Of a stretch of DNA of 37,818 nucleotides, positions 21,900-35,043 are shown piece by piece. The notes below the pieces were generated by a model. It saw only the letters and a list, made by a program, of their open reading frames with translations, did no database searches and had not been told where the DNA came from. Numbering within the stretch: position 1 is the stretch's first letter; every line of letters starts with the position of its first letter. The stretch lies in the IMG/VR virus record IMGVR_UViG_3300020411_003973, positions 1-37,818 of that record; one strand, given 5' to 3'. The position numbers and the translations under genes are program-made. The stretch is from a virus.

Positions 21900-23303
21900 T
21901 TATCCTCTTTTCTTGTTTAAGGAGCCTCGAAGCTCAAGGTCGACTTGTGATGGGTCCGATTTTGACATTTCAGCCAGCTGCTTTCTGTGCTGATATTTGA
22001 ATCTTGTTTGACCATGCCAATATTCGCCTTCTCTTATAAACTTACTATCCATGTGCCCCTTTGTCAAGTCATTAATGTAATTTAAGCCAGCAATGGGGCC
22101 CATGACGTTATTTGAATTCAAAACAATATCAACGTGGTGAGCAAAGCTAGTTTCAGAAAGTTGATGGCCGGTCTCGGCCAGGCGTAAGTGCAATATTATC
22201 TTTAGCCAATATTCATCTCCATACACCATCTCTTCAAGTTCGCTTTTTGGATCATCAGGCCCCGGCAGGGGCTGTCTATTCTCGTATTGTCTTTTTACAG
22301 TATCAACAAAACAGTCTCCATCAAAAGAAGACTTATGAAATCTTAATTTAATATAAGAACTATACTGTCCATAGAAAGAACTGTAAAGATCAAACATGCT
22401 TTTTCTCAAGTTCTCAATTTCTCTTAAGTGTGATTTTTGATAGTAAACATCAAACACACTATCAAACTCCAGGCCATAATTTGCCAAGTATTTTGCAGCA
22501 CCAGACACAAGCTCGGCGCCTTCCTCTAATCCAGTTTGCTTATTTTTTTTAAAATATTTGCCGCCGGAAGCAACATTAAAAACTATACGCCAAGGTGCGT
22601 TTCTATCGACCATAAAGCCAAACTTTCTAGCTGTTTCTACAAAGTGATCATAGTTGTAATCATTTACATATTGAGGAATCTTGTTGTTGGCTACTACATG
22701 AGGCTCACTAGCTATATCGATCATAAGCCCGCTTGCATATGGAGAGCAATGATTGGACAATATAAACCCAGTCATGGTGACCGGAAAATAGTAAGCAATT
22801 CTTGAAGCGTACCTTAAAAATTCGCGAACAAAATCATTAAAATCATGTATTTTTTCATGGCGGCGGTCCACGCTTAGGTACTCTTGCACGAAATTTACAT
22901 ACATTTTTTGCATGTGCTTGCTGTAATTATAGGCAATATCACCACTCCTTTGAGCTTTATAAGCCTTGAGGAAGCGATTATACGGACTGTCTTTAACAAG
23001 GAAAGTTTTTCTTTGATAGTTGGCCTGCAGGTCGCTAAAGGCTTCAGCAGCAAAGTCAGCAACCCACTCTGTTGAGCGCCCGGCGGAAATTTGTTCAAGA
23101 TTTTCTTTCTCTAGGTATATTGCGTTGCCCTCCCTATCAATACGACCATAAAACAAGTGTTTCTTTTCCAAATCAAACTGAGGCGCAGGCGTGCTGAGAA
23201 AGTTTTTTCGTGCGGCTTTCTCGGCAGCAATATTTGCTAACACCTTTGAAGTTTTCCAAAAGCGCTGCTGGGCATCAAATATAGCTTTAGAGAGTTTTGG
23301 CAT
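21900..23303 (-). CDS. Probable virion protein of unknown function (degenerate M15-like stretch)
   Basis: This 467-residue protein, rich in Tyr, Phe and His, is encoded at the end of the tail and baseplate genes and overlaps the 909-residue gene at TAATG. I do not recognise a named family. Residues 187-197 (S-P-Y-A-S-G-L-M-I-D-I) have the spacing of the SxHxxGxAxD zinc motif of VanY/M15 peptidases but with Tyr for the His ligand. KFGF and APWRIVFNV (227-244) follow, roughly where VanY has a GF element and HxE strand. If related, it is probably not a zinc peptidase any more. A baseplate or fibre-associated role is inferred from position. Confidence 0.55.
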   Translation of the reverse strand: MPKLSKAIFDAQQRFWKTSKVLANIAAEKAARKNFLSTPAPQFDLEKKHLFYGRIDREGNAIYLEKENLEQISAGRSTEWVADFAAEAFSDLQANYQRKTFLVKDSPYNRFLKAYKAQRSGDIAYNYSKHMQKMYVNFVQEYLSVDRRHEKIHDFNDFVREFLRYASRIAYYFPVTMTGFILSNHCSPYASGLMIDIASEPHVVANNKIPQYVNDYNYDHFVETARKFGFMVDRNAPWRIVFNVASGGKYFKKNKQTGLEEGAELVSGAAKYLANYGLEFDSVFDVYYQKSHLREIENLRKSMFDLYSSFYGQYSSYIKLRFHKSSFDGDCFVDTVKRQYENRQPLPGPDDPKSELEEMVYGDEYWLKIILHLRLAETGHQLSETSFAHHVDIVLNSNNVMGPIAGLNYINDLTKGHMDSKFIREGEYWHGQTRFKYQHRKQLAEMSKSDPSQVDLELRGSLNKKRG

Positions 23304-26032
23304 TACAAGGTCATCCTCTTGGTTTTCATTTTGCCATGGCCTAATGTTTTAGCATTTATAATCCTTGTCTCAAACGTTCCAGGCTCAATAACTATTTCTG
23401 TTTCTAAAATTAAGAAATAGCCTCCTAGATTTAGTTGATACGCTAAAGAGTTTCTGTCTTCTGCTGATCCTAGACCAAGAAAAGTTGGGTTAGCATAGAA
23501 AATCATCCCAGGGGTGAAAAGTGTATTTCCAACCAACGTCAAGTCAACGTCATAAGGAAACGCTAGCTGGCTTATTTGGTCGCCGCCAGCCTCAATAGAC
23601 TGCAGACTGCGCATTTCTGCTACGCCTGCGATATCTTGTTTTGAGAATTGCATTGTCTTTAAAAGCCCTCGGTCTGAGCCTATATTAAAATGATATATCC
23701 CGTCCTTTATATCAGAAACAGCTGTGCCAGTCCTTCTTCTTATGTCGCCAATTGATGACAACTGAAGAAGCAGGTAGTCGTAAGATTTGTGCACAGCGGA
23801 ATCAGACTTGTATGCGGCAGCAGCTTTTTCTTTATACATAGCCTTAAAGAAGCCATCGTCGACATTGATGACACGCTCGATGGGAAGTAGCTCCTCGCGA
23901 GTCCCGCTTTTGGTCTGGCGCCCGGGGAGGCTCACTTGCACATTCTCAACACGAGTTCCTCGTGGTTTGGCCGGGCGTATGCAATCAGCACCCATGCCAG
24001 GAAGCACAAGTTCATTCATAAATTTTCTGAGAAAGGTCCCAAGAGACATTGTGACAGCATCTCTTTTAATAACTGCATTTGTAAACCACTCTCTAAAAGT
24101 ATCGAAGGCTATAGGAAATTGAGACAAGTTGCAATGTTTAAGCTTACCGGTTCGGCTTCTGTATTCCATTGGTCCGATTAGTATTCGCACTCCAGACAAG
24201 ATAGAGTATAGTGAGTTCTCATCTTGTTCTTTCCAATAACTCTTTGGTTCAAAAATATATTTTTTATCCTCGTGCAGTTGCACGATGCCCGCGTTTTTGC
24301 ATGCTAATTCAATTACGTCACCAGCAAATATAAAGTGAAATTGATATCTCTCGCCCTCTCTCGCAGCTGTAATCAGCGATCTTGCGTTGTAGTCGACTGG
24401 CTTGTCTTTTTTGTCCTTACCTGCGCTCTCGCTACTTGGGCTTCTTGAAAATTCATCCGCATTTTTACTTACATCTGCCATCTTGGCGGCGTCAGCCAAA
24501 ATCTCGCTACAGACCGCAACTTTAAATGATTCCGCAGCATCACTAATTGCCGCGGTTGTTTGTTTCTTAATTCTTTCTTTTTCTTTTGCCTTGAGCTGCT
24601 CCTCTTCGCCAGCAGGTGTCATTTTAGCGCCCTTCGCCAAGGTGTTGCTTAGGCCTAAAACCTCATCCATTTTGCTGCTCGGCACGTTGGCACAAAACAA
24701 TCTAGTCCCCGTGCCTCGGTCTCCCTTGGCTCCATTAATAAGCTGACTCATGAAAGAGCGGTAAGCCGTTCGACGCAGGGCACCCGCCTTTTCATCAACA
24801 GAGGCTTTAAGACCCTGAACGAGTGCCGCGTCCTCGATATCTAACAGCACTTTCTCAGCATTTGTAGAAGATATTTTACCTTTTTTATTTCTAATCTTCT
24901 TGCCGGAAAACTCTTCATATATTTTTACAAAAGAGGGCATTTTAAGCAAGCGCGCGACGATAGATTCTCCGTCTGCGACGTCATCCTCCGAGTTTAAATC
25001 TTTGTTTGCCTCGGTAAGAAGAAGCTTGATTCTCCCCAGATTAACGGGGCTGGATTCGGGCGACGCGGTCGGCGATATATCACCCTCGCCATCTTTTTTT
25101 ACCTGCAAGGATGGTTGAAAAACATTTGCGTGGGCTGAAGAAATAGTAGTCTCAATTCGGCCAAAATAATCCGCACTAAGCTCTACACTACCATCGGCCT
25201 GTATACTAAAATCATGGCGATGGAGACTTAAAGACACCATTATATTTGAGTTTTCAAGTTTTTTTATGCACTCAATTTCTTTTTTATTAGTAATTCCCAA
25301 GCCACGCAAAGAAGATTCAGGCGGTATATTGTAGCCAATCAGCGCTCTGATTTCATAATGCTTGGGGTTGTATTCTTCTGTTTGGCGGTTTATCTTCCCT
25401 TCAGGAAACAATACCAAGTCAACATATCTTATATCGCGTTGGCCGGCTGGTCGGGCCACTAAATCTTTCAAACCTTTAAATTTTAAACTCAAAGAGCACT
25501 TAATATTCCTCTCTATGCCGCCATGGTCGCGTCCAATATGTCTTAATGTAAAAGACCTGAGGCCTACATTTCTCCAGTTTGCCTGAGAGGATTCAGATGC
25601 AAGATAGCTTGATACACTAGCAGACTGCTGTTTTCCGAAATTATCAGCAAATTTAATTTCTTTCATTGTTGGCTCTGAGAGGGGTATTATCTGACCTTCG
25701 TCATCGGTAGTAGTATACCTGACCTTGAAGAGTCGCACTTTTGGATGCAGAAGAGACAAAGTGGAGCTTTTGATGTTATAAAAACAACTCAAGTCACCTA
25801 AACCCTTCAGGGAGCTAACGATTGTTGGTGTGTGTCCTTTAATTTGGCGAAAAGTCCTGTATTCGAACAAATCCTCCCTAGAATTAGCGAATTCAAGAAC
25901 ACTGTCAATGTTTTGAGAAAGTATGCACTGTTGAATATTTCTATGTGTGCGCTCTTGGCGCAGAAAAGCCTTCCTTCTCTTTTCCTCCAGAACCTTAGGG
26001 TCTACTTTTTCTTTTTTTTCTTCTTTCGACAT
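23303..26032 (-). CDS. Large probable baseplate/tail structural protein
   Basis: This 909-residue protein has a Lys/Glu-rich N-terminus, several beta-rich segments and a conserved-looking C-terminus (about 815-905), with FPYDVDLTLVG, FTPGMIFYANP, LGGYFLILETE and FETRIINAK. The middle (about 330-520) is helical and charged. No catalytic motif is seen. Position after the LysM and tube-cap-like genes and the C-terminal beta pattern suggest a baseplate hub or wedge component. AGAGG precedes the start. The exact T4 counterpart is not identified. Confidence 0.6.
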   Translation of the reverse strand: MSKEEKKEKVDPKVLEEKRRKAFLRQERTHRNIQQCILSQNIDSVLEFANSREDLFEYRTFRQIKGHTPTIVSSLKGLGDLSCFYNIKSSTLSLLHPKVRLFKVRYTTTDDEGQIIPLSEPTMKEIKFADNFGKQQSASVSSYLASESSQANWRNVGLRSFTLRHIGRDHGGIERNIKCSLSLKFKGLKDLVARPAGQRDIRYVDLVLFPEGKINRQTEEYNPKHYEIRALIGYNIPPESSLRGLGITNKKEIECIKKLENSNIMVSLSLHRHDFSIQADGSVELSADYFGRIETTISSAHANVFQPSLQVKKDGEGDISPTASPESSPVNLGRIKLLLTEANKDLNSEDDVADGESIVARLLKMPSFVKIYEEFSGKKIRNKKGKISSTNAEKVLLDIEDAALVQGLKASVDEKAGALRRTAYRSFMSQLINGAKGDRGTGTRLFCANVPSSKMDEVLGLSNTLAKGAKMTPAGEEEQLKAKEKERIKKQTTAAISDAAESFKVAVCSEILADAAKMADVSKNADEFSRSPSSESAGKDKKDKPVDYNARSLITAAREGERYQFHFIFAGDVIELACKNAGIVQLHEDKKYIFEPKSYWKEQDENSLYSILSGVRILIGPMEYRSRTGKLKHCNLSQFPIAFDTFREWFTNAVIKRDAVTMSLGTFLRKFMNELVLPGMGADCIRPAKPRGTRVENVQVSLPGRQTKSGTREELLPIERVINVDDGFFKAMYKEKAAAAYKSDSAVHKSYDYLLLQLSSIGDIRRRTGTAVSDIKDGIYHFNIGSDRGLLKTMQFSKQDIAGVAEMRSLQSIEAGGDQISQLAFPYDVDLTLVGNTLFTPGMIFYANPTFLGLGSAEDRNSLAYQLNLGGYFLILETEIVIEPGTFETRIINAKTLGHGKMKTKRMTL

Positions 26033-27236: not shown

Positions 27237-29882
27237 CTATCTACCATAATTCTCAATTGTGTGCTCAATAAACTCTTTCAAGGTTCGGATGATTGTTTCG
27301 TATCCAACCTCAGCACCGCCTGTTTGAGAATTTTTAAGCTGCAGCTCGTACATTTTTTGTAATATGTCAAGACCGGCGCCTCCCATGGGATCAAGGCCAA
27401 TACCCATAGCTCGTCGAGTAGCTTCCGGGCCTGTTTCGGCCCTCAGTTCAGCCAAACCAGGGGCAGTACCAAGCTTGCGCTTTGTTAGCTCTTTTGCTTT
27501 CTTTTCAGCCTCAGTCTCAACTGGCTTAGCTTTAAGGTTTCTTTGATAATCTTTAAATTGCAGCACTGCATCGCGCATGGACGTTCCCGGATCGCGGTCT
27601 TTTATAAAGTCTTTCAGAGTTTTTGCTTTCGCTGCTTCTGCTTTCTTTGGCGTCGTAGCAGCCTTTTTTTGTTCTGCTTTCAATTTCTGCATTTTTTGAT
27701 TTACATGGAACTCTGCCATTTTTTGGGCTTTCGCTTCCATTTCTTCTTCTGACATGCCGGTCTTCTTGGCCCATTCGCCCATGACGGTCTTTGAATCTTT
27801 CAGCTGCCTTAGAGCCATCTCTTTCCTAGCTTCAAGCATCATCTTTCTCATCGCAGGCATGGCGCTAGCGGAGCCGACGAAATCTCTACCGCCGCCGCCA
27901 CCACCACCGGTCTTGGGCTTTCCTTTTGCCTTTGCGCGAAATTGCTCATTTTGCTCTTCGAGCATTTTCTTCAACGCTTCATCGTCGATTTTGCTCATAT
28001 CCACTACGTTTCGGGATTCGTCGAAGTACGTAGCCCGGGATCTTCCGCGATCAGCGCCGCGAAGCAAGCGCGCGGGGTCTTTTGCTTTGTTGAAAAAACC
28101 TTCGGCCGCGTCTGTGCCAGCTGTCAATGCGTGCATTGCCATCTCAGGCATGAGCGTAGCTAGCTTTGCAAGATTGCCGCCAATCTTCTCAGTAAGGATG
28201 CGAGAAATTTTATCGATATTGTCGGCCTGCTTGTAGACAACCGCGTTGACTCTGTCTGTCAAAGTCTGAGACGCGTCGAGCTTGTCCTGTATCAATTTTA
28301 AGTTTTTCGCAGGGTCTTTCGCATCCACAGCTTTGGCTTGTTTGTCTAACTCACCGGTCAAAGCTGAAGTAGTTGCACTAAACATTCTCTGCGCTGTGGG
28401 GACGTCCACCTTTAAGATGCCAGCAAAAACTTGCTGTTGTCGACGATCTAACTCAGAGAAATCTTTATCTAGGCCACCCATTGCTTTTTGTATTATTTTA
28501 ATTTTATCATCAGGCGCTGCGTGGACTAGCTCCATGACAGAGATCTTGTTTTGGCCCAGCATGGCGTTGAGGCGGCCGGCTGCTTCTGCGGCGCCTTCAA
28601 AAGTGTCCATGCCCATGGCCATATCGGTTAGTTTAGACACCTCGACACCAGTAGCTTTTGCGACTGCTTGCATGCCGGCAAAAGTCTTAATAATGTCTTT
28701 CTTGCCAAACATTGCAATCTTAGGAGCCATCTTGACAAAATCATCAAAATTCTGGTTTAGGTTAATATCCAGAGCGTCCCCAACAGCAAGTATGTGGTCC
28801 ATTGTTTTAACCATTTGCGGACCTTGCATTTGGAGCGCTCTGTTGAAGAAATCAAGCGTACCTGCAGTAGTTTTCGTACTGACGCCAAATTTTGCCAGAA
28901 CTGCCATTCGCTGACTTATGACAGTTGCGCCGGCACGGAGCCTTTTGTCGCTTTCTAGCTGCTCTCTTCTGAATGCCATAATAGTCGAAGTCAGATCAAC
29001 CATAGACTTTCTAGATTCTTTTGCTGTAATGCCAGTATCTTTTAGCGTACCGCCAAACTCTTCGTAAGCTTTCCGCGTTAAGCTCGCATCCGGTCCTGCA
29101 ATATCAGGATCAAGAGGCGCCATTGTGGCTACAAAGACATCACGCAAATTTTCAGACTGCAATCCGGTGGCTTTAACGAATGCTCTATATTCGTCATCCA
29201 TCTCGCCAATGGCATTCTTAAACTTAGTCTTCGCGCTATCCATAGTTGATTGAAGGGTATCCAAGCCAAACCCTGTGCCCTGGCCGAGGGCCTCACCAAG
29301 CTGTTGTTTAAAATACCCCATAGCGCCCAGCTTCTTAAACTCCGTGAACTTTCTGATGGCCTTCGCGACGGCGCCGGGGTCAGTGCCCATTTTCCCAGCA
29401 GGCGATGGTGCACCGGCAGTGCCCATCTTTCTCTGATTTTTATAATACTCTTCTTGTAGTCTGAGTCCTTTGCCCCACGCAGTGGCTTCTTTTTCCGCGG
29501 GACTCTGACCCTTGCCGGGTGCAGAAGAGGCTGCTTTGACTCTTTCGAACGAAGTAAGAACCTCCTTTAAGGAGGCGGTTATACCGGCTGTTCCGGTCTT
29601 AATTTCTGCAAGGATCTGCTTTACAGCTAGCGCTGCGTTAGCTTGCTCTTTGAGGCCGTCGGCTTTGACTTGCTTTTCAGCATCTTTGGCTAGCAACTCT
29701 GCCTGTTTTAGTCTAGTTTCGGCAAATTTGGTCATTTGCTCGCCAGACGTATTCACGACACGAAGAAGCTCTTGAAAACCAGCAACTTGCCCCTGTGTAA
29801 GGTTTGTAACTTGCAGCATGCCTTCTTTTAAGGCATTAAGGTTCTCTAGGGCTTCCTTTATTTTTTCTGGATCAAAGGCCAT
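27237..29882 (-). CDS. Tail tape measure protein
   Basis: This 881-residue, largely helical protein is rich in Ala, Lys and Glu. The N-terminal third is coiled-coil; the middle (about 330-500) has hydrophobic helices such as IAMFGKKDIIKTFAGMQAV and an AAGRLNAMLG segment; the C-terminal part has a poly-Gly stretch near residue 660 and Lys-rich helices. Position between the chaperone and the tube-cap-like gene is standard for a tape measure. Using the usual rule of about 0.15 nm per residue, the tail would be near 130 nm; this is only an estimate. GAGGAG precedes the ATG, and an ACTATTTATA box lies just upstream. Confidence 0.85.
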   Translation of the reverse strand: MAFDPEKIKEALENLNALKEGMLQVTNLTQGQVAGFQELLRVVNTSGEQMTKFAETRLKQAELLAKDAEKQVKADGLKEQANAALAVKQILAEIKTGTAGITASLKEVLTSFERVKAASSAPGKGQSPAEKEATAWGKGLRLQEEYYKNQRKMGTAGAPSPAGKMGTDPGAVAKAIRKFTEFKKLGAMGYFKQQLGEALGQGTGFGLDTLQSTMDSAKTKFKNAIGEMDDEYRAFVKATGLQSENLRDVFVATMAPLDPDIAGPDASLTRKAYEEFGGTLKDTGITAKESRKSMVDLTSTIMAFRREQLESDKRLRAGATVISQRMAVLAKFGVSTKTTAGTLDFFNRALQMQGPQMVKTMDHILAVGDALDINLNQNFDDFVKMAPKIAMFGKKDIIKTFAGMQAVAKATGVEVSKLTDMAMGMDTFEGAAEAAGRLNAMLGQNKISVMELVHAAPDDKIKIIQKAMGGLDKDFSELDRRQQQVFAGILKVDVPTAQRMFSATTSALTGELDKQAKAVDAKDPAKNLKLIQDKLDASQTLTDRVNAVVYKQADNIDKISRILTEKIGGNLAKLATLMPEMAMHALTAGTDAAEGFFNKAKDPARLLRGADRGRSRATYFDESRNVVDMSKIDDEALKKMLEEQNEQFRAKAKGKPKTGGGGGGGRDFVGSASAMPAMRKMMLEARKEMALRQLKDSKTVMGEWAKKTGMSEEEMEAKAQKMAEFHVNQKMQKLKAEQKKAATTPKKAEAAKAKTLKDFIKDRDPGTSMRDAVLQFKDYQRNLKAKPVETEAEKKAKELTKRKLGTAPGLAELRAETGPEATRRAMGIGLDPMGGAGLDILQKMYELQLKNSQTGGAEVGYETIIRTLKEFIEHTIENYGR

Positions 29883-29937: not shown

Positions 29938-30120
29938 CTACTCGTTAGCCTTTTCGATCGCTTCTTTCTCATCTTCAAATTGCTTGTTCAGGCGTTGTAT
30001 ATACCAGCGTCGGAGACCGACAGGCAGGTTGTAAGCTTCAATGAAACTCCAACCTCCATGGTATTTGAGTAAAAAGAACTCCTCATATACGCCCTCAATG
30101 TATTCATCACCCAGGCCAAA
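29938..30120 (-). CDS. gp51-like C-terminal extension made by frameshift (no start codon)
   Basis: A second reading frame overlaps the end of the gp26-like gene and continues to a TAG at 29938. From the T-run onwards it encodes 59 residues: a helical EGVYEEFFLLKYHGGWSF segment, then AYNLPVGLRRWYIQRL and an acidic tail. The Y-x-LP-x(2-4)-R-x-W-(Y/F)-x(2)-R-L pattern resembles small gp51-type baseplate hub assembly or tail chaperone proteins. The frame contains no ATG, GTG or TTG between the preceding in-frame TAG (near 30160) and its end, so independent translation is unlikely. A +1 (or -2) shift at TTTTTTT would fuse it to the gp26-like protein. Frame-shifted chaperone pairs before the tape measure gene are a known theme in tailed phages. 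Confidence 0.75.
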   Translation of the reverse strand, partial: FGLGDEYIEGVYEEFFLLKYHGGWSFIEAYNLPVGLRRWYIQRLNKQFEDEKEAIEKANE

Positions 30121-30976
30121 AAAAGTCCGTATTAAACGGCACCTCCATGTCTTCTATATGACCACAGTTTGAACATGCAAACGTTTGGGTGAGGTCAACT
30201 GCAGGCGTAAGCTGCGAGTACAATTTTCTCAAGTGTTTTGAGTCAGAAATAGGCATAACGCCCACAAAGCGCTTGATTGTCCAACGATCATCGTCGCCGT
30301 TGACCGCCTTAATGATCATCATCAACTGGTCAGTTACAACTGATTCGCCTTTGCCCTTTTTGTTGCTGTTTTGAGCAAACAACTTTGACTCTTCGTGACC
30401 AGTCATTAGCGACACGCCAACAACAACTTTAGATTTTGGCAACTCAATCAAAAACAATCCAGACTCTTCATCATGTTTGATTTTATTTTCTGCCAAAAAG
30501 TTTTGATCTGTGCAGTTGTTAACTATCTTCTTCTCTTCCAAGTCAAAAACGTGCTCTTCGTTAGAAGAGCATGCAGGACACTCAACGATTGTCTCATATG
30601 AGCTTCCAAACGCACTTGCGCGGGCCGCAACCAGAATAGCGTTGCGATCGCCAGTCAACAAAGACAAACCTTTAATGTTCTTATTGACCATGATGCTATC
30701 AATAAGCCTATCGAGCGCAACACCTCTTTTTATGAGAGCCGTCGAGGATAAAATATCCTCCTCCTTGGCCGTCATAAACTTAATTTCTAAATCTTTGGCA
30801 CCGTGCAGCGGGTGACCTTCGGGATAAAACCGACCTGCTGAAGGTAATTCAACAAATTCAGTTGGAACCGAGAAAGATAAACCAGTTTGAGCTTGACCGC
30901 CGTTAAAAACCTCTGGTATTACGCCATCAGAAGCTTCGCCAGGCTTTGGTCCAAGCCGATCCTCATTGTTCCTCAT
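30107..30976 (-). CDS. gp26-like baseplate hub/tail chaperone protein
   Basis: This 289-residue protein matches the T4 gp26 baseplate family in its N-terminal FVELPSAGRFYPEGHPLHG (41-59) and the following KDLEIKFMTAKEEDIL. Two CxxC knuckles (C133/C136 and C268/C271) probably form one zinc site that brings the middle and C-terminus together. The zero frame stops at TGA just nine bases past a run of seven T residues, and a start-less second frame continues beyond, so this protein is likely made in a short and a frame-shifted long form. GAGAGG precedes the ATG. Confidence 0.8.
   Translation of the reverse strand: MRNNEDRLGPKPGEASDGVIPEVFNGGQAQTGLSFSVPTEFVELPSAGRFYPEGHPLHGAKDLEIKFMTAKEEDILSSTALIKRGVALDRLIDSIMVNKNIKGLSLLTGDRNAILVAARASAFGSSYETIVECPACSSNEEHVFDLEEKKIVNNCTDQNFLAENKIKHDEESGLFLIELPKSKVVVGVSLMTGHEESKLFAQNSNKKGKGESVVTDQLMMIIKAVNGDDDRWTIKRFVGVMPISDSKHLRKLYSQLTPAVDLTQTFACSNCGHIEDMEVPFNTDFFWPG
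30118..30124 (-). other. Candidate slippery site (seven T residues)
   Basis: The coding strand reads GAC TTT TTT TGG in the gp26-like frame, and the gp51-like frame continues as TTT GGC CTG. Moving between them needs a +1 or a -2 shift at the run of T. The zero-frame stop follows three codons later. Confidence 0.6.
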
Positions 30977-31040: not shown

Positions 31041-31616
31041 TTAACTATAAGGCATGAAAGACGTGATTTTTTCGTATTTAGCATAATCATATGCAATATC
31101 AATCCCAACTTCGACTAAGCCATTGTTGCCGTAATCCAGGCTTTCACCCCACTTAATGCTGGTAATGAAAGGATTGACTAATGACCATACCTCTTTTACG
31201 TTCGCATTTTCAGGGACGCCGGCATCGTTGGTGGTGCCACCGTCAAGCTGCTTAATTGTAATTCCGCCAATAGCTTCAACTGCGGCTTTCTTTGTAATAC
31301 CGACTGCGGCATCTACCCTGTTACCCGGTAGACGATATCCCATGGACTTCATTACATGCCAAAATTCGCTTCCCATGTCAGCTTGAAAGGAGTCAATAAG
31401 AGTAACGCTGATGGGTTCCCATTTAACCTTGGTGGGAAACTTAAAAACATGATTTAAAAAGTTATGCTCTTCTGCGTCTTGGCTAAAAGACGGCTTCTTA
31501 GCTACCTTTGCCATAAACTCAACGTCGCTTACGTTGGCAAAGTTTAAAATCCATCGAAACTGCCTTTTGGGCTCAAATGCATTTGGGTTCGTTGCTTTAC
31601 TAAAAAATGTACTCAT
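31041..31616 (-). CDS. Tail tube protein, gp19-like
   Basis: This 191-residue protein lies directly after the sheath gene, the standard place for the tube subunit. The sequence is beta-rich: RQFRWILNFANV near the N-terminus, KWEPISVTLIDS (about 65-76), a loop-rich middle, and a C-terminal SIKWGESLDYGNNGLVEVGI followed by YDYAKY, which match the strands that build the tube hexamer in gp19-like proteins. AAGGAG precedes the start, with a GCTATTTAAA box upstream. It should be made in large amounts. Confidence 0.85.
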   Translation of the reverse strand: MSTFFSKATNPNAFEPKRQFRWILNFANVSDVEFMAKVAKKPSFSQDAEEHNFLNHVFKFPTKVKWEPISVTLIDSFQADMGSEFWHVMKSMGYRLPGNRVDAAVGITKKAAVEAIGGITIKQLDGGTTNDAGVPENANVKEVWSLVNPFITSIKWGESLDYGNNGLVEVGIDIAYDYAKYEKITSFMPYS

Positions 31617-31659: not shown

Positions 31660-34600
31660 TTAGTCGTCAAAAGAGGCTCCGGAGCGCGTAATAATGAAAT
31701 CAAGCGCGATGTACTCAATTGCTCGTGCAGGTTTAAGGTAAATTTTCGCATACATAATGTTACGGTCAATTAAGTCCGGAGTTGTAGTCGTCCCGTCAAG
31801 AACAACCTTGTAATCCGTAAGACCAAACCCTGCCTTTACACTGTCCAGGAGGGGGTCAACTTGACCAATGAATCTATCCCAGGTCTTCTGCACGTTTTGG
31901 TCAAATAAGATTCGAGATGCAATTTTAGAAATTCTCTTCTTAAGGAAGATGAGAAGTCTTCTAACGTTAATTCTGTCCAGCGCTGAAGGTGTTACTTGCA
32001 GCGTTTTTTGACCAAAGATTACAATTCCTTCCGCTGGGAAGCTAGCAATCGGGTTGATGTTAGCATCATACAGCTTGTCACGCTCTTTGGAGGTAACACG
32101 CTGGCGTACGCCAACGACCGGGATGCCTGCAGAACCTTCGCTTAGGCCGCCTCTTGTGAAGCCAGCTGGTGCAAACCAAACATCAGATTTTCTCTGCGAG
32201 CTTGAGAACGTGCCCAAGGCTACAACAGATGGCGGAACGTAAAGAATGGAGTTATTGATAGTGTCGCGCACTTGGACCCATGGGTAGAAAGCGCAACCAT
32301 AGCTTGAGTTAAGGCCCATGGCCTTAAGATTCGACACAGTCGTATCAACACTACCAACTCTTGCTGTTTCAGTCGTGTTGGTTTCATGCTTGGGCACGTA
32401 GCCGCCAGGCAAGTCGATTATTGCCAACGAGTCGCCGCGATCCTCGCATGCGTTAACAAGGGCTGTCGTCAAGTTAGTGTTGGTAAGGCCCGGCATGCAA
32501 GCAGTATCAAACTCAACATACTCGGAATCTGACAAGATATCAATGGCCTTTTTGACAGAGTAATAAGCATAGTTAGTCGTAACGCCGCCGCCGTCCAAGT
32601 AGTTATTTCGGAAAGGATCAGCTTCTTGAATCTTCAAGCCGTCGCGGCCTCCCCACATGGGCGAAGTAAAGCGGTTGAAGCCCTTGTCAAGAACACCCTC
32701 AGAGCCTGACCTTGCAGTCAGAGAAAGGTTATCTGCGCGGGATCCCGAAGTCCAAATGGCTGTTGAAGTATCAGTGTTGTCTCCATCGCTGTCTCTTAAG
32801 CGAACATCGTCAAGCGTGAACACCCAAGAATACTCAGTGTTGTTTGAAGACACAGCATGCTGATCAAGACCAGCAGGACCGGCGCGAAGGAGATCTAGGT
32901 TGGTGTGATCGAAAATGCGTGTACCTTCAATAACAGACTGATATCCAAAGTAAGCTTGCGTATCCAGCACCAGGTCTCCCTCTGAAGAGGAAACGCGCGT
33001 GCGAGTGCGAGGCCAGTCTAAGCGAGCGTCTAAATTAAACTGATATGCCGCTTCTGCTGCATCGCCGTTAAACAAGATTGATGCCGGGCTGTGAGCAGTA
33101 TTGTTAACAAGCGATCCCGTGGGCAGATGGCCTGCGACACCTTGACCACCAAGGACCCAAGAATTAAGATTTGTAGTCCCTTCCTGGTCCTTAACATTCG
33201 CAATAGTCGAGTCTTCGGCAATCCAAAGATTTCTAGGCACGACCGGACCGAAACAACCATAAGGCAGAAGACCTTCTGCGCCGGCATTGTCAACCAACGG
33301 AGAGGTTTCAACACGAATATGCTGTGAGTGGTTTGGATAGTCACCATGCTGGCGAATCACCTTGTTCGTCGCGTCGTAAGTGTATTCACGGTTACCAATA
33401 ACCCGAGCAATAAAGTTAGCAGAAGTTGGATTTAAGTTTAGGCCACTGTAGCGCTCTAGCACAACTGGGTTATTGTCAGTGTCGTTGGCGCGCCGCACCA
33501 AGACAGAGAAAGTGCCGAACTTGTTAAACTTATCCGATGGAGCTTTGATGTCTTGAATAGAGATCTTGATATCTCTGTTTGTGTGCGCACCATTGTCAAG
33601 TGCAACAAGACGGAAAAGCTTTTCGGTGTCATCAATTGGATTAAAGTCCGCGTAGTTTGTACCGCGCGTGTCTTGAGAAATAAACCACCCAGTTTTTGCT
33701 GCTGCAGCAGTGCCGGTGGATCCCAGGTGATTTGACCAATCAGTGCTACCCTGCTTAAGGCCTAAAATCACACCCAAGAACTCACCACTGTGGTTTACCG
33801 CAGTGCCGGTGACCGCTAGCTGTGTTCTAACCGGCTGGTCAAAAGTCTCTCCAAGCCAGTAATGCTCTTGTGTGCCGCCACAATCCGTGCAGACCAAATC
33901 TTCATTAGTTTTTGTTGGGTCAGTGTTGAACACCTTTCGAATGTAAAGATCAGAATCCTTGTCAAAATTAAAAGTTGCGCTCTTTTGTACACCAGTGTTA
34001 GCGGCAGCAGTTGTATAACCGTCCTTGACAACCTTAGCAGTAAACTTTTGGTCGGTGGAACGAATAAGCACACCTGCGCCTTCGCGGGGTTGACTATCGC
34101 GGGCAGTACCGGACAGAACAACGGCTCCGTCTTCAACATACCAAATCGCTGCTAGCGTTCCCGTAACATGCATCGTGTTGATTACGTGACTGTCATTTGC
34201 GACAGTTACTTTGTCTCCAGATACAAGAGTACCTCTAACGGGATCCTGTGGGACGCCGTTTGCAACAAATCGAATTGTAGAAGTCGTACCACCTTCGCCC
34301 GCAGCTTGAATATCAAGCAAAGCGCTGCCGTCTGCGGTGTCCTTTGTTGTGGCGGTCACGCCATACAGACGTGCTTGGTTGAGCGAATTTTGAATTGAAT
34401 CGCACAGGTTGGCTGTATCGCCACTGATGCCGGAGGCGCCAATTTTCGTTGCGGTACTATCAGCAATTGCAACATCGCCGTCAATCTGGGCACTATATAC
34501 GTTGCCAGACTGATCTGTAAAAGTTAGAGTCTCTCCACCCGAGAGCGAGACGTTGGCTGCGACGATGTCAACAGTTGTTGTCGAGCCGCGCTTGTCCGGG

Positions 34601-35043
34601 TCGGGCATAACAAAAAGACCGTAAGCTCCGCCAGAATCGTTGATGCTGTTGTTTAGAGTGTTCGCAGTTCTCCAGCCAGCTTGTCCTTTAAGGTTGGTGG
34701 AGCTGTAAGCTTCAGCGGAATCTGACTGTTCTCCAAGCAAGCGGAAAACAGTAACAGGGGAGTTGTTTCTTAGCCATGCTTGCACAGCATAAGCTGCATA
34801 AGTCGGAGCAGTCATTGCTCCGGTTCGCCAGACGTCGCCGCCTGGATTTCCATCTGAAGGGTTGCCGAAGAGCGACACAAACTCAGGAAAACTCTCTACT
34901 TGAACCGGTCGCATCGCAGGGCCTTTGGCAAACCTACCGATAACAACTGGGCCCATCTCTACGGGCTGCGGTGGTAGGGCAGATTCATCAATCTCGTTGA
35001 TGAAAACGCCCGGTGATACAAACTTAAACTTATCAACTGCCAT
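31660..35043 (-). CDS. Tail sheath protein, gp18-like, enlarged
   Basis: This 1127-residue protein keeps both ends of contractile sheath proteins. The N-terminus has SPGVFINEIDES and a VVIGRFAKGPAM/VESFPEFVSLFG segment. The C-terminus (about 1000-1127) has FPAEGIVIFGQKTL, NVRRLLIFLKKRI, a WDRFIGQVDPLL stretch and the final LKPARAIEYIALDFIITRSG that links neighbouring subunits. T4 gp18 has 659 residues, so about 450 extra residues are inserted, mostly beta-rich, Thr/Gly/Asp-rich domains at about 150-600, including a CTDCGG knuckle. These would lie on the outside of the tail. GGGAG precedes the ATG. Confidence 0.92.
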   Translation of the reverse strand: MAVDKFKFVSPGVFINEIDESALPPQPVEMGPVVIGRFAKGPAMRPVQVESFPEFVSLFGNPSDGNPGGDVWRTGAMTAPTYAAYAVQAWLRNNSPVTVFRLLGEQSDSAEAYSSTNLKGQAGWRTANTLNNSINDSGGAYGLFVMPDPDKRGSTTTVDIVAANVSLSGGETLTFTDQSGNVYSAQIDGDVAIADSTATKIGASGISGDTANLCDSIQNSLNQARLYGVTATTKDTADGSALLDIQAAGEGGTTSTIRFVANGVPQDPVRGTLVSGDKVTVANDSHVINTMHVTGTLAAIWYVEDGAVVLSGTARDSQPREGAGVLIRSTDQKFTAKVVKDGYTTAAANTGVQKSATFNFDKDSDLYIRKVFNTDPTKTNEDLVCTDCGGTQEHYWLGETFDQPVRTQLAVTGTAVNHSGEFLGVILGLKQGSTDWSNHLGSTGTAAAAKTGWFISQDTRGTNYADFNPIDDTEKLFRLVALDNGAHTNRDIKISIQDIKAPSDKFNKFGTFSVLVRRANDTDNNPVVLERYSGLNLNPTSANFIARVIGNREYTYDATNKVIRQHGDYPNHSQHIRVETSPLVDNAGAEGLLPYGCFGPVVPRNLWIAEDSTIANVKDQEGTTNLNSWVLGGQGVAGHLPTGSLVNNTAHSPASILFNGDAAEAAYQFNLDARLDWPRTRTRVSSSEGDLVLDTQAYFGYQSVIEGTRIFDHTNLDLLRAGPAGLDQHAVSSNNTEYSWVFTLDDVRLRDSDGDNTDTSTAIWTSGSRADNLSLTARSGSEGVLDKGFNRFTSPMWGGRDGLKIQEADPFRNNYLDGGGVTTNYAYYSVKKAIDILSDSEYVEFDTACMPGLTNTNLTTALVNACEDRGDSLAIIDLPGGYVPKHETNTTETARVGSVDTTVSNLKAMGLNSSYGCAFYPWVQVRDTINNSILYVPPSVVALGTFSSSQRKSDVWFAPAGFTRGGLSEGSAGIPVVGVRQRVTSKERDKLYDANINPIASFPAEGIVIFGQKTLQVTPSALDRINVRRLLIFLKKRISKIASRILFDQNVQKTWDRFIGQVDPLLDSVKAGFGLTDYKVVLDGTTTTPDLIDRNIMYAKIYLKPARAIEYIALDFIITRSGASFDD

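Follow-up and report, generated by a model that had tools for sequence, protein, structure and literature searches.

The locus lies on the minus strand of the window, the whole stretch of 37,818 nucleotides that was analysed (IMG/VR record IMGVR_UViG_3300020411_003973). Its genes follow one another as sheath, tube, chaperone pair and putative tape measure, which is the position occupied by chaperones of the G/GT type. The tail sheath protein (31660–35043, 1127 aa; phrog_23, E 8e-70, and PF17482) and the tail tube protein (31041–31616; phrog_4542, E 1.5e-18) stand upstream, and the next gene downstream encodes a putative tape measure protein of 881 aa (27237–29882, all on the minus strand), so named for its length and its position after the chaperone locus, as profile searches gave no match above noise. 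Further downstream, two large ORFs (23303–26032, 909 aa, and 21900–23303, 467 aa) had no PHROGs match at E 0.001.

The pair itself consists of a short tail assembly chaperone of the T4 gp26 type (TAC-N; 30107–30976, minus strand, 289 aa), read in the zero frame, and of a second (+1) frame (29938–30117, minus strand, 59 codons plus stop) corresponding to the C-terminal domain of a longer form, TAC-NC, and resembling the C-terminus of T4 gp51. TAC-N ends with VPF NTD FFW PG and the stop TGA at 30109–30107. The register of the second frame is open from 30153 to 29938, following a stop at 30156–30154, and after the T-run it encodes the 59 residues GLGDEYIEGVYEEFFLLKYHGGWSFIEAYNLPVGLRRWYIQRLNKQFEDEKEAIEKANE. 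A sequence-only reading of this DNA had described a gp26-like frame closing three codons past a run of seven T, a 59-residue frame reached by a +1 or -2 shift and a location just before the tape measure gene; on the minus strand its coordinates and counts are correct, the second frame is present at 30117–29938, and the 881-aa putative tape measure is indeed the next gene.

Regarding the identity of the proteins, TAC-N matches the Pfam family PF12322 (T4_baseplate) with 50.7 bits against a cut-off of 24.5, which places it in the gp26 family, as well as phrog_150 (baseplate hub, E 1.7e-16). A profile built on the gp51 C-termini of KVP40, cyanophages and T4 aligns with the second-frame family (hhalign probability 92, E 6.4e-7), in agreement with the gp51-type assignment made at first reading. 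Meanwhile, its score against PF20546 (DUF6760), 19.5 bits, stays below the cut-off of 27, and 16 of 37 relatives match this family weakly. The AlphaFold model of the fusion has a mean pLDDT of 84.5, with an uncertain C domain that was modelled without related sequence rows. For the N-domain model, the best PDB match is the HK97 tail assembly chaperone 2OB9 (Z 5.8 over 85 residues, rmsd 5.2), which appeared only in the VIA second look, followed by YqbN 3KLU (Z 5.5), both low in absolute terms, the next best being 3.4. Foldseek of the model against the PDB gave no match below E 0.001 and a sequence search of solved structures nothing relevant; the predicted viral structures matching the model include T4-like hub assembly proteins.

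The second frame is unambiguously a protein-coding sequence under protein-level purifying selection, as judged from the comparison of relatives. Among 204 distinct relatives, none has a stop in this register within 50 codons, whereas the other two registers have one in 202 and 204 of them, a difference well outside what chance would give. Among 449 pairs of close relatives, 4757 single differences are synonymous and 1034 non-synonymous, and the differences at codon positions 1, 2 and 3 number 1794, 798 and 6056, respectively; as the pairs share ancestry, these counts are descriptive, with an unambiguous direction. In the window, the frame holds no ATG, GTG or TTG from its upstream stop to its own stop, as had been claimed, and the lack of a shared start, proposed earlier as a check on homologues, turned out to be conserved: in 52 of 210 distinct loci, the stretch between the preceding stop and the eighth codon beyond the site lacks all three, and the remaining loci have no start position common to all. 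Several groups have a stop in this frame one to three codons ahead of the site, so an upstream start cannot serve there. With no common start and a frame closed so near the site, entry by frameshifting near the two phenylalanine (FF) codons is the simplest route. Thus, as in pairs of the G/GT type, the downstream frame overlaps the upstream ORF, lacks a conserved start and is under selection.

For the comparison of frame phase, 272 loci were collected in six scans of viral contigs and from cultured phages. With the requirement that the second frame run at least 35 codons past the TAC-N stop, the +1/-2 phase was found in 253 of the 264 loci having a readable TAC-N stop, and most of the 11 non-conforming loci run off the contig end. 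Of 12 further loci from GTDB assemblies, 11 were readable, and all 11 show this phase; ten have T7-GG, while in the eleventh the T-run is longer and precedes a C. The phase is also found in the isolates RM378, Mel-JY01, immuto, SP-15 and others. In the public records of phages of this +1 clade, the C domain is annotated as a separate hypothetical protein or left unannotated. A few loci depart from the pattern: L232 and L261 have both registers open, their protein motif fitting +1, and the huge phage L088 carries the C domain in the -1 register. In L181 (near 2214) and L186 (near 2205), the site at the TAC-N stop is altered, to TTC TTG TAT and TTC CTT TGG CCA, respectively, and the C domain, set in another frame and separated by a stop, has an ATG of its own, an apparent natural loss of frameshifting that serves as a natural control supporting it elsewhere.

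The putative shift site is TTT TTT TGG (30116–30124, minus strand), with the T7 run at 30124–30118, and it occupies the same position in 210 distinct relatives. Its codons would be the P-site TTT (30121–30119), the zero-frame A-site TGG (30118–30116) and the +1 A-site GGC (30117–30115). Among the 210 regions, the zero-frame codons are TTT TTT TGG in 156, TTT CTT TGG in 28 and TTC TTT TGG in 13, with TTT CTA TGG and CTT TTT TGG (three each), TTT TTT TAC (two) and the single cases TTT CTA TTC, TTT TTT CAC, TTC TTT CGT, TTT TTT AGT and TTT CTT TAC. The second codon is therefore TTT in 177, CTT in 29, CTA in four and TTC in none, that is, YTT in 206 of 210, and the base following YTT is T in 203, C in two and A in one, a conserved slippery site in the overlap. 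TTC makes up about one quarter of the Phe codons in the TAC-N genes of the window group and is repeatedly used as the first codon; in a tree built from 104 chaperones, there are at least six changes of the first codon, and TTC appears at about four distinct points. The A-site codon is mostly TGG, otherwise TAC, CAC, CGT, AGT or TTC. Conservation of the T-run had been suggested as a check, and the position and codons are conserved, but not strictly the run itself, as TTT CTT TGG and TTC TTT TGG occur.

A ribosomal +1 frameshift yielding a minor TAC-NC fusion is the favoured and probable explanation of these sequences. Most ribosomes would translate TAC-N and stop three codons past the T-run. 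In a minority, with UGG waiting in the A site, the peptidyl-tRNA-Phe on the second UUU would slip forward by one base, from UUU_U to UUU (in some relatives, from CUU_U to UUU), and translation would resume from GGC in the second frame, giving TAC-NC with the junction NTDFF-GLGDEY. By analogy with gpG/gpGT of lambda, both forms may cover the tape measure protein, with tail tube subunits being recruited by the C-terminal domain of the minor form. We infer from the comparisons that frameshifting occurs and has the +1 direction, and likewise the ratio of the two products and their function in tail assembly. Counting against the mechanism are the A-site UGG, which is no stop codon and not obviously hungry, the distance of the SD-like element (17–28 nt), the negative search for a downstream structure, and the four sites whose second codon is CTA, where the slip would have to take place at the preceding codon, at UUU_C.

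The direction was the point left undecided by the sequence-only reading, which had allowed +1 or -2. A -2 ribosomal frameshift at the T-run, of the type of phage Mu, would add one extra Phe (NTDFFF-GLGDEY) and is accommodated by the T7 run, which gives perfect -2 re-pairing. Upstream SD-like elements at longer spacing are also known as stimulators of backward shifts, as in dnaX. However, in a simple re-pairing test of the peptidyl-tRNA, +1 was possible at 210 of 210 sites and -2 at 196, so re-pairing of the Mu type does not extend to all members. The 14 sites that bar it are the TTC TTT sites (TTC TTT TGG and TTC TTT CGT), spread over about four lineages of the tree, where -2 meets a mismatch at the middle codon base and +1 a perfect slip. 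As T7 sites, that of the window included, are compatible with both and cannot separate them, the +1 assignment in the window rests on homology with the TTC TTT relatives. The +1 alternative is thus the better supported one, and -2 is unlikely.

Transcriptional slippage, in which RNA polymerase would omit one U (U7 to U6) or insert two more with the aid of a 5' hairpin, would resemble the stem-loop-mediated slippage known in a Roseiflexus IS630 element, and a GC hairpin does lie two nucleotides before the T7 in the window and in about 40% of its group. This short hairpin (CCGT-TTAAT-ACGG, 30127–30139, minus strand), between the SD-like element and the T-run, seems optional, as all four pairs are kept in just 20 of 52 thinned window-group loci, and in many relatives sharing the phase, homopolymers do not exceed three or four bases (TTT CTT TGG, TTC TTT TGG). 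Such broken T-runs make slippage by RNA polymerase unlikely and, together with the unconserved hairpin, led to its rejection as a very improbable explanation.

Equally improbable is a separate gene for the second frame, expressed from a non-AUG start or by re-initiation after the TAC-N stop. It would find some basis in the annotated or plausible AUG starts of the C domain in KVP40, cyanophages and L181/L186, as well as in the SD-like element upstream, but the 52 loci without any of the three start codons and the lack of a start common to all speak against it, and the conserved FF codons and the second-frame GL preceding the domain would be left unexplained; an independently started gene was rejected for want of a shared start. 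A sequencing error in the T-run, named beforehand as what would undo the proposal, is excluded because the phase recurs in more than 250 loci from many independent assemblies, in all 11 readable GTDB loci and in the isolates.

With these alternatives weighed, the locus most likely represents a conserved programmed +1 frameshift like those of other tail assembly chaperones, as far as sequence comparison can tell. The proposal that a programmed frameshift joins gp26-type and gp51-type chaperones is accordingly retained as the best explanation, given the conserved site, the phase, the absence of a shared start and the homology. Known frameshifts of tail chaperones are mostly -1, with Mu being -2. 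Like the lambda gpG/gpGT type (P2, Mu, HK97 and others), the pair would comprise a short and a long chaperone encoded by overlapping frames, and it lies directly ahead of the putative tape measure gene. For its N-domain model, the HK97 chaperone is the best match, though with the low Z score given above. Unlike in the lambda type, +1 is favoured here. A +1 shift has been suggested for the archaeal myovirus HSTV-2 (PMC5009743). The +1 frameshift of bacterial RF2 (prfB) has CUU_U as its conserved shift site, UUU_U being used in a minority of species (PMC5009743). The same shift codons, with an upstream SD-like sequence, are found at the present sites, whereas the A site here holds no stop codon and the SD-like element is farther away.

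This element, a candidate stimulator, is GGAGG at 30142–30146 (minus strand) in the window, 17 nt before the T-run, with no ATG after it. GGAGG, AGGAG or AAGGAG occurs 8–40 nt upstream of the site in 77%, 55%, 62% and 100% of the loci in four groups, the background rate of these motifs being 2.5–5% of comparable stretches elsewhere in the same genes, and anti-SD complementarity at these positions exceeds that of synonymous resamples. The spacing in the other groups is mostly 23–28 nt. RF2-type stimulation has a spacing of 3 nt, and 17–28 nt is too far for it. The SD–anti-SD hybrid is described to rupture after a further 5–7 nt of translation (PMC5009743). Downstream of the site, no stimulatory structure was found (mean z between -0.84 and 0.50).

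In T4, genes 26 and 51 lie apart in opposite (divergent) orientation, their products reportedly being chaperones made from separate genes. The locus shares with T4 the membership of TAC-N in PF12322 and the homology of the second frame to the gp51 C-terminus, whereas it presents as one locus, with an apparent frameshift, what T4 has as two genes. Long-tailed phages as a rule produce two tail chaperones through frameshifting, and T4 has been named as the exception (PMC5009743). The pairs of KVP40 and cyanophages comprise the same genes, and their apparent shift likewise falls on the FF codons near the end of TAC-N; they differ in having T TTT TTC and the C domain in the -1 frame, instead of +1. 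This motif occurs at the FF codons of KVP40, S-SM2, B23, P-RSM6, ME01, Astolliot, Moby, 6E35.1a and Atu_ph07, with T TTT TTG in RHph_I9, and in this set of KVP40, cyanophages and other canonical T4-like phages the gp51-like ORF is continuous in the -1 frame. The public records of these phages (L273–L281 and L284) annotate separate genes around the apparent -1 site at the gp26 end. PMC12846349 refers to Vladimirov et al. 2022 (Virology 566:9–15) with regard to poly-T -1 sites of T4-like phages, and priority for the -1 part presumably belongs to that work. No report of the +1 clade was found in the literature searched, the coverage of which is incomplete.

In the tree, a single change lies between the -1 and +1 groups; its support is weak (54) and some branches are long. 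The direction of frameshifting thus seems to have switched at one homologous point. The sequence-only reading had suggested a fused or ancestral state. This idea fits, but KVP40 and cyanophages share the pair and have an apparent -1 site, so that at least two frameshift states exist, of which +1 is one, and the tree does not say which state is ancestral.

Apparently, T4-like phages, hundreds of them uncultured and a few cultured, make their long chaperone by a +1 slip at the T-run. The trick is known in other phages, usually as -1, and here a large clade would use +1, opposite to its sister clade, so that a conserved shift joins the gp26/gp51 pair forward in one clade and apparently backward in the other. 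To our knowledge, an SD-like stimulator as distal as 17–28 nt upstream has been described for neither +1 nor -1 sites. A broader scenario, put forward tentatively, is that a large T4-like clade would use a stop-independent +1 shift at YUU_U with such a distal stimulator, sometimes brought nearer by the hairpin, that within one homologous gene pair the direction would have changed between +1 and -1, with the same two codons as the shift point, and that T4 would have replaced frameshifting by separate genes. The evolutionary path to the two genes of T4 becomes testable, since its relatives have gp26 and gp51 joined in two directions. In addition, the series UUU_U, CUU_U and UUU_C, with hundreds of natural variants, constitutes a data set for stop-independent forward slips of the bacterial ribosome.

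The tail sheath protein has a weak BON-domain match near residues 303–331, below the Pfam cut-off. A search of plasmids gave no match. A T4-like tail module with the same shift site was found in CP070664.1 (L286), titled as a chromosome of a candidate division WOR-3 bacterium, this module being either a prophage or misassigned phage sequence.
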